A DNA stretch of 26,283 nucleotides from a virus: the IMG/VR virus record IMGVR_UViG_3300030101_003375, positions 1 to 26,283 of that record; one strand, written 5' to 3'. The position numbers were made by a program, and so were the translations under genes. The notes under the pieces are model-generated. The model did no database searches. It had not been told where the DNA came from and saw only the letters and a program-made list of their open reading frames with translations. Shown here piece by piece: positions 234 to 11,131 of this stretch; positions within the stretch are counted from its first letter, which is position 1, and the number at the start of each line of letters is the position of its first letter.

Positions 234-719
234 ATGCGTATCTCCAAGTCTTTTTTTACTGCAGCTCTCGCACTCTTTACCACTCCAGCTTTCGCAGACC
301 CACCAAGCTACATGGACCCGCTGCTAGTAGCGATATGGGAAGTAGAAAGCTCTAGGAATCCTGGCGGTGTTCCCTTCTATGCGGACTCTGGTAAGACAGC
401 TGGTCCCCTTTGTATATCTGCTGCTTATTTCGCAGACAGCAGGAAGCCTGGTAGATGGCCAGAGTCTGTATTTGATCTAGAATACTCCTGCCAAGTCTTC
501 CGGGCCTATATGGCCCGCTGGGGCTCTCCACAGAGAATCCAAGCCCAAGCCCCCGGTATGTCCCGCGAAGAAGCTTGGAGCCGTCTACACAATGGCGGAC
601 CCCAAGCTTTAAAAGCCAAGCCTGGGACCAAGAAAAGACAGAATCTGGACCGTTACTGGGGCAAGGTAAAAAAAATCTTAAAAAGATTAGAACAAACGTC
701 CCCCAGCCGGGACATTTAA
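234..719 (+). CDS. Secreted lysozyme/transglycosylase-like protein (probable endolysin)
   Basis: This 161-aa protein probably cleaves peptidoglycan at lysis. Residues 1-21 look like a Sec signal peptide: basic start, hydrophobic AALALFTTPAFA, then a signal peptidase-type site AFA|DP. The mature part has a lysozyme-like pattern: IWEVESSRN with Glu38 in the position of the catalytic Glu of the 'ESGgN' motif, then AGPLCIS (compare GPLQI in goose-type lysozyme and SLT families), and RLHNGGPQA near residue 120. The C-terminus is basic (KVKKILKRLE). A signal peptide would let it reach the periplasm without a holin. The ATG at 234 follows AAAAGGAA at good spacing. It is the first gene of the rightward arm. 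The family assignment rests on short motifs; an inactive lysozyme-fold virion protein is the alternative. Confidence 0.7.
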   Translation: MRISKSFFTAALALFTTPAFADPPSYMDPLLVAIWEVESSRNPGGVPFYADSGKTAGPLCISAAYFADSRKPGRWPESVFDLEYSCQVFRAYMARWGSPQRIQAQAPGMSREEAWSRLHNGGPQALKAKPGTKKRQNLDRYWGKVKKILKRLEQTSPSRDI

Positions 720-1630: not shown

Positions 1631-2653
1631 TTAGCTACAAGCTCCCCAAGAAGACAGTACGACCAGGACAGCTTCTAAGCCATTGTTCGTCTGGGGGTGA
1701 TACTGAAAGCCTGCATAGTCGCCTAGGACCTTTAGCAAATCTTCGAAGCCTACCCGTCCGTTTTCGTCCAGGTCCGCTGGGCAGATATTGTCTAGCTCGT
1801 AACTAACTTGGTAGGGGGAAGGGTCGCAAGGGTAGCTATTTCCACAGGCAAAACGAATTACGCCAGAGCTGGCGAAAAGGTCTGGACCTGTAAACCTGGC
1901 GATATGGAAAGACCCAGGAAACTTGGAGCTAGACCAGTCTTGTAAATGGCCACGCCAAATAATCAAGTCCGCGTAATCGTTTTGGCTTGGCGAGCTACAG
2001 CAGACCTGGCTTGGAACCTGTCCAACTGGGTAGGGGTCCCAAGCTTTATAAGTGTTCGATTCGATCAAGTCTTTGTGCTGGGCTTGGACCTGGGGGTAAA
2101 TCATCTGCTGATTCTGTCCGTACTTCCGCCCAGGTTCCCCGGACAGGATCCAAGAATCACACCAGAAGTATTCCAGTCCAATCAAGTCGTAAGTATTGGG
2201 ACAGCAGGACCCAGCTTGTACTTGCCAGTTAACTGGAGTGTAGTTTTGGCCAAGGTACATCCACCTTTGGTACGGGTTACTTTGGATACAGTCCCAGTAA
2301 GCACCAGGACTGGGGCATTTAATACCCGTATCCTGCTCCCAGTATTCTTGGCATTCTGTACAGTTTTCTAGAAATGGGTAAGTAGCGTCTCGGCGGTTCT
2401 TAAATACTTCGCCTTCAATAACCCAGGAAAAAGACCTAGCTGGAGATTCGTTACCCCTGGTGGCCCCAATCATGTACGGCGGTCTGGGTCGTCCGCTTGG
2501 CGGTGTAAACTCTGGATCTAACCCAGTCTGTATGTAAACGTCAAACGTCCGGCCAAAGGGGGTAAGCCTTCCCAGGTCGTCTACCCACATAGCCACAGAG
2601 TTTGGGTCTGCTGGTGGACCAGAAAAAGCCAAAGCCAAAGCAGTTAAGAACAT
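1631..2653 (-). CDS. Secreted Cys-rich protein with planctomycete-type dockerin/EF-hand C-terminus
   Basis: This 340-aa protein begins with a short hydrophobic segment (MFLTALALAFSGPPA), a probable signal peptide. The central part is rich in aromatic residues and Cys (ENCTECQEYW, GSCCPNTYD, QVCCSSPS), suggesting a disulfide-bonded exported domain. The C-terminus has CPADLDENGRVGFEDLLKVL, with Asp-x-Asp-x-Asn-Gly-x-Val and a terminal Asp as in an EF-hand/dockerin calcium loop, then a second half ending SSWGACS. This closely follows the CPADL-(D/N)-G-V-DLL-VL-WG-C tails common on planctomycete secreted proteins. The ATG at 2653 has GGGAG nine bases upstream. It is the last leftward gene. It could be a surface, virion-decorating or superinfection protein; the function is unknown. 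Confidence 0.75.
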   Translation of the reverse strand: MFLTALALAFSGPPADPNSVAMWVDDLGRLTPFGRTFDVYIQTGLDPEFTPPSGRPRPPYMIGATRGNESPARSFSWVIEGEVFKNRRDATYPFLENCTECQEYWEQDTGIKCPSPGAYWDCIQSNPYQRWMYLGQNYTPVNWQVQAGSCCPNTYDLIGLEYFWCDSWILSGEPGRKYGQNQQMIYPQVQAQHKDLIESNTYKAWDPYPVGQVPSQVCCSSPSQNDYADLIIWRGHLQDWSSSKFPGSFHIARFTGPDLFASSGVIRFACGNSYPCDPSPYQVSYELDNICPADLDENGRVGFEDLLKVLGDYAGFQYHPQTNNGLEAVLVVLSSWGACS

Positions 2654-3117
2654 CGTTTACGACTCCCAAAACCAAAAGCTAAAAACATCAAAGCCAGCCC
2701 GCTGGACTGGGGAACAAATGAGTAAGTTTCACCAGACCAAATGTCCTGGTCTTGGGACGAATTAGGAAAGAAGCTTTTACCAAGCTCTGGAGTTAAAGCT
2801 GGCAAGTATGGAAAAAGGGGAAGCTCTATAAGAGAGCTACCAGAACTGTTCCAGCTGCGAGCTTCCTGGTCTGGAGCTGTCACAGCTGCCAGCTCTGTAT
2901 CTGGTCCAAGCTGGCTAGCTTCGCTTGTAAATGCGTCCAAGCTAGACGAAAGACCTAGAGCTAGGTCCAAAGATTCTTTACCCAGAAGCGTAGCCATAAC
3001 TGTAAGAGCTAGGGTAAGCCGTTGGTTCTTCTTGGACATTTCCCTACATTTAGACTCGCAGTCCGAAAGCTGTCTGGCTTCCTGGGCTTGTCTTTTTTCG
3101 CAAGCTGGACAGCTCAA
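2644..3117 (-). CDS. Membrane-associated protein with Cys-rich N-terminus and PEP-CTERM-like tail
   Basis: Unrecognised protein of about 157 aa. The N-terminus has CPAC and later DCESKC, a possible metal-binding or disulfide cluster. A moderately hydrophobic helix follows (LTLALTVMATLLG), then a long Ser/Leu-rich region. The C-terminus reads VPQSSGLALMFLAFGFGSRK: a Val-Pro, a hydrophobic stretch and a basic end. This resembles PEP-CTERM sorting signals (VPEP, transmembrane, RRR), which are frequent in planctomycetes, although the second Pro is missing. A longer TTG start exists at 3132. I prefer TTG at 3117, overlapping the upstream stop as TTGA with GGGAG eight bases before. Its 3' end overlaps the next gene by ten bases. 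Confidence 0.6.
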   Translation of the reverse strand: MSCPACEKRQAQEARQLSDCESKCREMSKKNQRLTLALTVMATLLGKESLDLALGLSSSLDAFTSEASQLGPDTELAAVTAPDQEARSWNSSGSSLIELPLFPYLPALTPELGKSFFPNSSQDQDIWSGETYSFVPQSSGLALMFLAFGFGSRKRCS

Positions 3118-3476
3118 CCCCTGGTCTCCCAAGGATTATGCCTTACAACTGTGCTACCTAAGCTAGCTCTTTCGATTCCTGGAACTGGTCTAGATTCCGC
3201 CAGGGTCTTAGCCTGGTGGCATGAAATACAGAGTCCCTGGAGATTCGTATAGCTATCGTCCCCCCCACGGGACAGGGGTACTATATGGTCTACCTGTTGC
3301 GAAGCTGCAGCGTTACAAGCTTTACAAACTGGGTCTCTGGCCAGGATCTGGGCTCTAAGCTTCATCCAACGCCGACCACGGTTAGCCCTGGTACTTCTGT
3401 CTTTCCTGGGTTCTGGTCCCCGGTCTCTTTGCCCCAGGGGAACCAGCCTACCGTCCCCAGTAACTCGCTTAATCAT
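3114..3476 (-). CDS. HNH endonuclease
   Basis: A 120-aa HNH nuclease. The core shows CKAC (about residues 51-54), VDHIVPLSRGGDDSYTNLQG with the catalytic His, and CISCHQAKT with the second CxxC zinc pair and final His. A basic N-terminal region (RKDRSTRANRGRRW) precedes it. Phages with HK97-type large terminases and cohesive ends often encode such a protein next to the terminase, where it assists packaging cuts. Here it lies some 21 kb away on a linear map, but only about 6 kb from the terminase if the molecule is circular. The ATG at 3476 overlaps the stop of the upstream 31-codon gene as ATGA. A homing-type HNH is the alternative. Confidence 0.88.
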   Translation of the reverse strand: MIKRVTGDGRLVPLGQRDRGPEPRKDRSTRANRGRRWMKLRAQILARDPVCKACNAAASQQVDHIVPLSRGGDDSYTNLQGLCISCHQAKTLAESRPVPGIERASLGSTVVRHNPWETRG

Positions 3477-3568
3477 TTACCAAGCTTTTTAAGAACTCTG
3501 GACTTGTGAACCAGTCCAAGAACAAAGCCCACAACCATACCTACTGCTGCGCCGGACATGAAAGACAT
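3473..3568 (-). CDS. 31-aa single-span membrane peptide
   Basis: A small gene with the signal AGGAG about eight bases before its ATG at 3568 (…GGAGACGAGTTATG), one of the best ribosome binding sites in the window. The peptide starts MSFMSGAAVGMVVGFVLGLV, a Gly-rich transmembrane helix with glycine-zipper spacing, and ends with a basic tail (HKSRVLKKLGK). It overlaps the 3' end of the upstream lipoprotein gene by 28 bases in another frame, and its stop overlaps the HNH start as ATGA. A holin-like or regulatory role at the membrane is possible; no homologue is recognised. Confidence 0.65.
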   Translation of the reverse strand: MSFMSGAAVGMVVGFVLGLVHKSRVLKKLGK

Positions 3569-3963
3569 AACTCGTCTCCTTCTTTTCGTCGTCGCTCCCA
3601 AGAGCGAGCCAAGTAAAAAATAAGCATACCCCCACCAATAACCACAGTAGCCAAAGACACTGGGACCAGAAGACTAGCTTCTAAAGCCAAAAACAATGGG
3701 GGAACCAAGCTAATAAGAATGCCAAGAATAAGAGCCCGTTTACCTGTTCTACCTGGGTAGACGATCATCGCAATAATCCCAGCCAAGATAGCCAGACCAC
3801 CCGAAAGACTCAACGGAAACAGAGACCAAGCTACATGGTCCGAGCTAGCTGGAGCTTGTGGTAAAGCTTGTACAGGGTTAGGCAAGCTGCCAGGAAGCTG
3901 GAGCTTTGGCGAGCTTTGGCAAGCTACAACAAAACTAAGGGTCAAGTACCAGAGCTTGGACAT
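3541..3963 (-). CDS. Polytopic membrane lipoprotein
   Basis: This 140-aa protein starts with a lipoprotein signal: Lys3, a hydrophobic run and lipobox VVAC with Cys15 as the lipidation site. A Pro-rich linker (about 16-42) follows, then three predicted membrane segments (about 50-68, 76-95 and 98-117) and a basic C-terminus (ARSWERRRKEGD). It follows a gene for a membrane-anchored coiled-coil protein, so a spanin-like pair or holin function in lysis is plausible. Classical outer-membrane spanins lack several membrane spans, so this is not a standard one. The start at 3963 has only a weak Shine-Dalgarno sequence. Confidence 0.68.
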   Translation of the reverse strand: MSKLWYLTLSFVVACQSSPKLQLPGSLPNPVQALPQAPASSDHVAWSLFPLSLSGGLAILAGIIAMIVYPGRTGKRALILGILISLVPPLFLALEASLLVPVSLATVVIGGGMLIFYLARSWERRRKEGDELCLSCPAQQ

Positions 3964-8702: not shown

Positions 8703-10283
8703 CTAGCCCATAGCAGCAGAACGACCAGGACCCAGCTTAAGCCCGGACCCGCCCTGGGACGTTAAGACCTTGGAGCTTCCGAAGGTAACCTGTCCAGTAG
8801 AGCTACCCGTCAAGTCCATAAAACCACCTGGGTAAACACGAACTACGCCAAACTCCAAAGCTGCTTTATCGCTAGAGCTACCAAGCTTTAACGTACCGCC
8901 CAGCAAGTCCGAAACACCGCTTAGTAAATCACCGTCAAAAATAGCTGTACCGCCCCTTAGAAAGAAAGCTGGCATAGAGCTAACGGTATGTATGTACCTA
9001 CCGTTTCCGGTTATTTCTACGGTATCTGATCCGGCACTATGACTGTGCTCGACATTACCACCAAAGCCCACAGTAGTTTTTAGCGGGTCTCCAGACGTAT
9101 GGTTTACCAAACCACCGTTACCGCTCGGATGCCTTACGTCGATATTCATAGAGTTATTATTTGTTAAAGCTAGCGTGGTAGAGTTTTTGGACCTCATAAA
9201 TATATTGGTCCCAGAGCCAGTTAGGTTTACTCCACCAGCCGATCCAGTAACGAACGTCTGTGTATTAGACGCGAGCTCTATATTTAGCTCTCCATCATCT
9301 GTAGCAAGTACCACGGTTTCAGCTGTAAAAGTAGCAGGGGTTTCGGACGTTCCAATCGTTCCAGAAAAGCTAGGTGTTACGAAAACGCTACCGCATGTAA
9401 GAGAGCCGGTAATAGTATTAGCTGTGTACTCCGCATCAAAAAGAACTTTATCTCTGGCTGTTGGTACTGCTGCGCTACTCCAGTTAAGAGCATTACCCAA
9501 GCTTCCGTTTACCCCACCTTGCCAGCGTATAGGGTCGATTGTTGGTTTGTGGAATCTGTAAGTATGGGAGCTGGGTAAATTTGCCTGGAGTCCATACTTC
9601 CAAGCTAGGTAACCTTCAATCTTTTCTCTATTCTGCGTAGATAACGTAGCACCCCCTACTAAAATTTCTGCTATGTCTCCCTGCATAGGATTACCACCTA
9701 CCGAAGCTGCACCAATATCAAAAACGTTGGCATTACTAATACTCCCAGTGTTGGTCGTATTTGTGGTAGTCATAGGAGAACCGTCTACGAAGCCCGTACA
9801 AGTCGAAGAAACCCTAGAACCCGTCACTAAGACAAACTCTGTACGACTCCAGTTACCAGCCGTTTGTAACGGTATATTGTTTGTACCCCCTAAACGTACT
9901 GCTAAATTTCCGTTCTTTGCAGCCATCAAAGCTAGCTGGTTTGTTCCCTTCTCAAAAATGAAGTCTACGTTACTCTGGTCAGAGCATTTAAACAAAGCAG
10001 CTACCCAAACATCCCCTGTACCAACGTCGAGAGCTGATATATCACTATCGCTCAAAATGTCGTTAGTACCATCAAAACGAACCACTGGTAGACCCGCTAA
10101 CTCGTTGGTCTCTAGGGTAGGCTGTCTTGTGGACGTAGCTTGGCTTGCGTTATTTCCGTTTCCAGAAGAATCTTCCCAGCTAGAAACGCTAGATCCATCA
10201 GCACCAGTAATACTGTCTGCTTTAAACCAGGCAGATAGAGTAGAGCTACCTAATTCGTCCGGTGTCCAATCTCCCCCAGCCAT
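8703..10283 (-). CDS. LamG-like plus beta-repeat tail fibre/adhesion protein
   Basis: A 526-aa protein, probably part of the receptor-binding tail tip. Residues about 13-245 form a LamG/concanavalin-like domain: LSAWFKADSI, SVSSWEDSSGNGNNA, VVRFDGTND, then the hallmark ending EGYLAWKYGLQANLPSSHTY. From residue 254 (RWQGGVNGS) a second module begins, with NWSSAAVPTARDKVLF followed by Thr/Ser/Gly-rich beta strands that fit a beta-helix or autotransporter-like repeat. The same module forms the whole of the preceding gene product. Such domains are common in planctomycete exoproteins. It starts by TAATG overlap and has fewer AGCT sites than the rest of the window. Confidence 0.72.
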   Translation of the reverse strand: MAGGDWTPDELGSSTLSAWFKADSITGADGSSVSSWEDSSGNGNNASQATSTRQPTLETNELAGLPVVRFDGTNDILSDSDISALDVGTGDVWVAALFKCSDQSNVDFIFEKGTNQLALMAAKNGNLAVRLGGTNNIPLQTAGNWSRTEFVLVTGSRVSSTCTGFVDGSPMTTTNTTNTGSISNANVFDIGAASVGGNPMQGDIAEILVGGATLSTQNREKIEGYLAWKYGLQANLPSSHTYRFHKPTIDPIRWQGGVNGSLGNALNWSSAAVPTARDKVLFDAEYTANTITGSLTCGSVFVTPSFSGTIGTSETPATFTAETVVLATDDGELNIELASNTQTFVTGSAGGVNLTGSGTNIFMRSKNSTTLALTNNNSMNIDVRHPSGNGGLVNHTSGDPLKTTVGFGGNVEHSHSAGSDTVEITGNGRYIHTVSSMPAFFLRGGTAIFDGDLLSGVSDLLGGTLKLGSSSDKAALEFGVVRVYPGGFMDLTGSSTGQVTFGSSKVLTSQGGSGLKLGPGRSAAMG

Positions 10284-11131
10284 TATGTAACCGTCAAAAT
10301 TCTGTTTACGTTTGGTCGAATAGTACCTTCGCCAATAATGGTGATACCATTGGTAAATGTCGTATTCGCAGCGCCGTTTCTTTCGTCTACTGTTCCATCG
10401 TATAGGTTTGTATTTGTAAAAACAGCCCCAGTAGAAGTAGAGTTATTAACGGTACTAGCCAGGCTAGCAGTATCGAAAACATTAAGTGTCGCTACCGTCC
10501 CGGTGGAGTTGTGGTTTAGGTTTCCAGCACCTGTAAGGTTTACGGTCGTAGCTCCAGCTGCCCCGGTCAAATCCACGCTTCCACCAGATACGTCCGCTGT
10601 AGTAAAACTTTTAGCAGTAGTAACTTCCCCAGAGTCCATTAACAGATTGGCAAAAGCTGTAGCTGTAGATAGTACAGATACGGTAACCCTGGGGGCTTGT
10701 AGCACCTGTAGAGTAGTTACCGTCCCCGCAAATTCTATAACCGAGTTACCACCAACAACCCGTAACGTACTAAAGCTGCTAGGTGTACCAAAAGTAATCC
10801 CCGGAGAACTAGCACTACCATTAAAGACTTCCGTAATAACCCCAGTCGTATAGTCCCCGTCCAGGTGGACTTGGGCTTGGTCCGTAGCAATAATAAGGTT
10901 AGCTGCGTCTACTTCTAGTTTTGTACCAGCAACTCCGAGCTTGCCCGTAAAGCCTGGAAGAATCCTAATACTATTGTAGTTTGTAGAAGCTACGCTAGAA
11001 GAAACGGTAACGTCCCGGCTAGTCGTGTTAAAAATAACATCGTCCCCAGCATTAGGAAGAGCACCTGTAGACCAATTAGTTACGGTGTTCCAGTCCCCAT
11101 CAGTATTTCCAGTCCATGCGACAATAGCCAT
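10283..11131 (-). CDS. Beta-helix tail fibre/adhesion protein
   Basis: A 282-aa protein that starts directly with the module AWTGNTDGDWNTVTNWSTGA followed by LPNAGDDVIF, then short Thr/Val/Ser-rich repeats to the end, typical of beta-helix adhesins. The opening block aligns with residues 254-285 of the next gene product, so the two are partial paralogues. No signal peptide, consistent with a virion part rather than a secreted protein. ATG at 11131 is preceded by AAAGAG. Likely a tail fibre or tip protein contacting host surface glycans or protein. Confidence 0.68.
   Translation of the reverse strand: MAIVAWTGNTDGDWNTVTNWSTGALPNAGDDVIFNTTSRDVTVSSSVASTNYNSIRILPGFTGKLGVAGTKLEVDAANLIIATDQAQVHLDGDYTTGVITEVFNGSASSPGITFGTPSSFSTLRVVGGNSVIEFAGTVTTLQVLQAPRVTVSVLSTATAFANLLMDSGEVTTAKSFTTADVSGGSVDLTGAAGATTVNLTGAGNLNHNSTGTVATLNVFDTASLASTVNNSTSTGAVFTNTNLYDGTVDERNGAANTTFTNGITIIGEGTIRPNVNRILTVT

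Follow-up and report, generated by a model that had tools for sequence, protein, structure and literature searches.

An open reading frame of a 26,283-base linear viral record from IMG/VR (the whole of which is called the window below) encodes a member of a conserved, mobile family of exported proteins, here called family A. Computation establishes this, and that in the collections searched the family is found only in phages. Its members end in a dockerin-like tail of the type seen on Phycisphaerales exoproteins, and this one well-conserved gene moves among siphovirus-, podovirus- and myovirus-type backbones.

An exported protein family on unrelated phage backbones

The ORF (1631–2653, minus strand) starts with ATG and specifies 340 aa, exactly as given in the earlier note. 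The phage of the window is siphovirus-like, with TerL (phrog_9), an HK97-type major head protein (phrog_10) and a tape measure, all encoded on the minus strand. The family A gene is the final gene of the minus-strand block, and just 3′ of its stop codon lies a hairpin (1591–1624; −23.3 kcal/mol, z −3.8), a likely terminator between converging genes. This agrees with the place at the end of a late operon proposed earlier; judging from that position, the protein would be expressed late.

The protein begins with a short hydrophobic leader (residues 1–11; 2621–2653, minus strand), called on hydropathy, without SignalP. It is followed by a core domain (residues 14–288; 1790–2614, minus strand), delimited by an AlphaFold2 model and conservation, and by the tail (residues 291–339, between two Cys; 1637–1783, minus strand), delimited by conservation, profile alignment and the model. 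The segment CPADLDENGRVGFEDLLKVL covers residues 291–310, and WGAC residues 336–339. As the earlier note had proposed from one sequence, a putative signal peptide and many Cys characterize the protein: a hydrophobic stretch (9-mer mean KD of at least 2.06) stands at the N-terminus of all 58 near-full-length homologues, with no further TM-like stretch in any of them, and 10 of the 13 Cys are kept in at least 98% of these homologues (the remaining three in 83–84%). Export, predicted from sequence, thus appears well supported. No Pfam, PHROGs or NCBIfam model matched the 340-aa protein above cut-off, the only tblastn matches among 50,697 phage records were due to chance, and literature searches turned up nothing on the family.

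Searched with the single protein, 2.9 million viral contigs yielded 4 homologues, and an alignment of those raised the number to 80. An exact-pattern scan for the N-terminal motif of the family gave 78 stretches, so the earlier scan was near exhaustive. The claim that such a tail is not a hallmark of phage proteins is not supported, since the protein in its full length forms a family of phages, present on about 80 viral contigs. Distinct proteins extracted numbered 67, and the 58 near-full-length ones share 59–99.7% pairwise identity (mean 75%).

Carriers in IMG/VR fall into at least four unrelated tailed-phage backbones, as judged from gene clustering and from the PHROGs that representative genes matched (per-locus group labels come from shared gene clusters), together with smaller unassigned groups. 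In addition to the type of the window, these are a second sipho type (TerL phrog_2, portal phrog_2662), T7-like phages (portal phrog_449, head protein phrog_267, TerL phrog_38) and T4-like phages (gp23 phrog_138, tail tube phrog_45). Each of the six long carrier records checked held a single copy. T7- and T4-like relatives whose capsid genes are more distant were also retrieved by capsid similarity; most of these records had no copy, though as fragments they cannot prove absence, and two had a partial match at the contig end. The head protein of the window has a 97% identical counterpart on a 17-kb contig, which ends before the region of the family A gene. A partial homologue adjoining a gp23 gene 87% identical to that of a carrier prompted a separate pattern scan, and this revealed two further subfamilies in T4-like relatives: the second aligns over almost the full length (30–34% identity, E 1e-28 to 1e-38), and the third has in common with family A the leader, an N-terminal GR-TP-G-T motif and the tail.

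We compared the phage groups with the protein phylogeny. Mapped onto a maximum-likelihood phylogeny of these 58 sequences (quick search), the group label changed 28 times, where 7 changes would be the fewest possible and shuffled labels averaged 35.7; it is partly clustered but far from congruent with the tree. Starred branches join a T7-like copy to a window-type sipho copy (L042, L048) and a T7-like copy to a second-sipho copy (L014, L025). The median dN/dS was 0.09 (65 pairs in the usable range). Taken together, incongruence with phage lineage and the low dN/dS indicate that the gene is exchanged among unrelated phages and is under purifying selection.

The dockerin-like tail and the host group

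The two Cys bounding the tail are invariant in family A. Aligned with a profile of Phycisphaerales tandem tails, the phage tail profile matched end to end over 50 columns (HHalign 98.8%, E 4.3e-17), whereas reversed and column-shuffled controls reached at most 2.6%. A chance motif was rejected on these controls, and the planctomycete exoprotein type read from the single sequence was borne out. The exact DNA pattern for VGFxDLLx(L/V)LxxWGxC occurred in at least 102 stretches among 84,980 species genomes. Among the 80 matches listed, 79 fell on contigs of MAGs assigned to Phycisphaerales or Phycisphaeraceae, and the last on an Acidimicrobiia MAG. Since nearly all of them come from two MAGs, the pattern shows association with Phycisphaerales and not exclusivity; in these MAGs the motif comes as a tandem pair that mostly ends the protein. 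The Acidimicrobiia contig (JABDJC010000111.1), with Phycisphaerales-type tails, is from the same sample series and probably misbinned. Of 201 genomes from the order, 30 had tails by profile, at up to 64 places per genome, as did 2 of 149 genomes sampled across the phylum and 1 of 149 for Actinomycetota (a suspected misbin). One MAG from the order (L212) encodes, beside an ABC-transporter gene, a protein with a compact one-loop tail like that of the phages.

The tail has a single canonical EF/F-hand loop (residues 294–305; 1739–1774, minus strand), identified by conservation, in which the D/N positions of the EF ligand pattern are kept (D294, D296, N298 and D305). The second loop is degenerate, with QTNNG(F/L) in place of DLDxSGxVGF. 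Against Pfam, phage tails matched EF-hand_1 alone (E 0.16–0.17), and host tails matched EF-hand with near-cut-off scores for Dockerin_1; a PDB search with the tail gave weak dockerin matches. In the second AlphaFold2 model the tail was the best predicted region (block pLDDT 73–91, helices 303–314 and 326–334), and the objection foreseen earlier, that no calcium-loop fold might be predicted, does not apply. A search of 20 genomes from the order that carry such tails, as candidate hosts, found no cohesin (PF00963), and ‘dockerin' therefore denotes a shape and not a cohesin-binding role. Judged by its sequence, the tail is not a classical dockerin.

The tail had also been put forward as the best clue to the host, and its match to Phycisphaerales exoproteins makes it one. 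The backbones of the homologues are unrelated, yet their common tail suggests one host group; most likely, the carriers infect one Phycisphaerales-like group. No CRISPR spacer or provirus link to a host was found, and relatives of the TerL of the window (28–46% identity) in 4 of 181 candidate genomes are no proof of host. The literature searched contained no isolate-based study of Phycisphaerales phages.

The core domain and the neighbouring genes

The earlier note had taken the protein to be host-derived. We found no support for this in the core, which was absent from the 84,980 species genomes when sought with two short patterns (distant forms may escape these). Profile searches gave no convincing match in 392 Planctomycetota genomes, none in 181 genomes of one family and, with a broader profile, none in 350 genomes of the order. 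The search works, as a similar profile recovers the known carriers with E values of at most 1e-141. Short Planctomycetota matches at E 0.03–0.7 were judged on inspection to be due to chance. With no core found in the genomes searched, capture of a whole host exoprotein was rejected.

Two AlphaFold2 models suggest N- and C-terminal strands in a beta-sandwich-like arrangement, with a Cys-rich insert (about residues 85–200) predicted at low confidence. The first model (32 sequences, pLDDT 53) had no PDB match, and the second (60 sequences, mean pLDDT 60) none in PDB or BFVD at E 0.001; the best VIA-align score of the second, Z 3.9 with bacterial adhesins, is weak and non-significant.

The gene immediately upstream (2644–3132, minus strand; likely start at an internal TTG, 3117) overlaps the family A gene by 10 nt and belongs to a family that we call comp3. 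Its product has a Cys-rich N-terminus, one N-terminal TM and no profile match; its C-terminus (VP…SRKR), with VP, a hydrophobic stretch and basic residues, resembles PEP-CTERM by eye only. A comp3 gene lies within 2 kb of the family A gene in 17 of the 22 loci that have both, the window included. Likewise, 15 T4-like loci encode, within 0.9 kb, a leader-bearing protein with a PEP-CTERM-like end, which aligns with PF07589/TIGR02595 in the right register at 17.5 and 16.3 bits, below the 20.7 cut-off. Exported proteins with host-type C-terminal tags thus recur around the gene. In seven loci a second dockerin-tail gene overlaps it, and in L002, L003 and their relatives a gene of the third subfamily overlaps it by a few bases.

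The wider setting varies with the backbone. In T4-like loci the gene adjoins gp23, between gp23 and the tail genes, and in T7-like loci it is near the portal or TerL gene. A lipoprotein/TM gene is present at 3541–3963 of the window, and its family is within 2 kb in all 16 loci that have both. Window positions 234–719 (plus strand) encode a leader-bearing protein resembling i-type lysozyme (Destabilase; Pfam E 0.0076, a relative 1.3e-4), found in 16 related loci, in 8 of which it is within 2 kb of the family A gene. Among other genes, one T4-like carrier has, between gp23 and the tail-tube gene, a gene for a porin-like outer-membrane barrel (L005:4324–5307; Porin_4, E 4.4e-5, just below cut-off). 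The window encodes a Laminin-G-like structural protein (8703–11131, minus strand; phrog_10356), which, like its neighbour, has WTG-TDGDWNT-type or similar repeats, with related ORFs in 25 and 9 loci. A small basic Cys-rich protein ending in RRRWKC or similar (L056:9630–10055 and relatives), related to PHROGs of unknown function, is encoded near the family A gene in several carriers.

A possible role at the host surface and parallels with known systems

We propose that family A is a phage-specific protein made along with the late genes, which its short leader would route through Sec. Disulphides and the beta-rich core may give a compact extracytoplasmic protein, and the C-terminal module, the same tag as on host exoproteins, could then pass it to a host export or surface-anchoring route. 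Since this tag is that of exported Phycisphaerales proteins, the infected cell probably bears the protein on its surface, and we hold this location, export included, with some confidence. There it might alter or mask something that many phages of the host group need, most plausibly keeping progeny and rival virions from re-adsorbing and superinfecting. As a whole, this chain of steps is a tentative proposal, somewhat short of probable. Envelope-acting superinfection-exclusion proteins are known in phages, and exclusion is our leading specific guess at the function, albeit a doubtful one; exclusion genes are often early and fast-evolving, so the late look and strong conservation of family A count against it.

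The main rival is a role in lysis or egress, by which the late exported protein would displace host tail-bearing surface proteins or disrupt the outer coat, freeing virions. Its position as last gene of the late block and the lysozyme-like and lipoprotein/TM genes nearby would suit such a role, which is nevertheless unlikely, because the T4-like copies are away from the lysis genes and the protein has no catalytic or spanin signature. It is also conceivable, though improbable, that the exported protein binds released virions or cell debris and aids attachment to the coated host. In a component of a virion assembled in the cytoplasm, an export leader would be unexpected, and one protein would serve backbones with unrelated tails, even if the capsid gene next door in T4-like loci and the beta-sandwich-like core, with its non-significant adhesin resemblance, point that way. 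Finally, phages may have acquired a host gene and kept it as an auxiliary gene, as the plainly host-type tail and its compact counterpart in the L212 MAG would suggest; given the lack of a core homologue in the genomes searched and the large phage-only diversity, with two further subfamilies, we consider this very unlikely.

More generally, surface placement through a host tag might be a common device, whereby Phycisphaerales phages share exchangeable late exported proteins that borrow host C-terminal sorting tags, the dockerin-like tail of family A and the PEP-CTERM-like ends of its neighbours among them, and convert the surface of infected cells, with the compact dockerin-like tail serving these bacteria as a signal for export or anchoring and not as a cohesin ligand; we offer this as speculation that is less than probable. 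The recognisable sequence of family A makes it a marker for the phages of a host group that is poorly sampled, and as a small phage protein it opens the function of the Phycisphaerales C-terminal tail to testing.

The phage tail resembles type I dockerin (PF00404) in its loop-helix EF/F-hand segment, D/N ligands, C-terminal place and predicted helices, but differs in its degenerate second loop and the lack of a Pfam Dockerin_1 match. It is closer to the tandem tails of Phycisphaerales exoproteins, with which it shares the end-to-end profile match, the bounding Cys, the WGxC end and the extreme C-terminal position, although it is shorter (about 49 aa, one canonical loop, versus 54–58 aa). PEP-CTERM/EpsH (exosortase) sorting is a functional parallel, in that the tail may work like a host C-terminal sorting tag, and a neighbouring gene in T4-like loci has a PEP-CTERM-like end; family A itself, however, has no PEP-CTERM, and the neighbours score below curated cut-offs. 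PEP-CTERM tags occur in outer-membrane bacteria, planctomycetes included (Haft et al. 2006, PMC1569441). Although its late place and the lack of any sequence or fold link found set family A apart from envelope-acting superinfection-exclusion proteins of phages, it is like them in being exported, mobile across unrelated phages and apparently not part of the virion.
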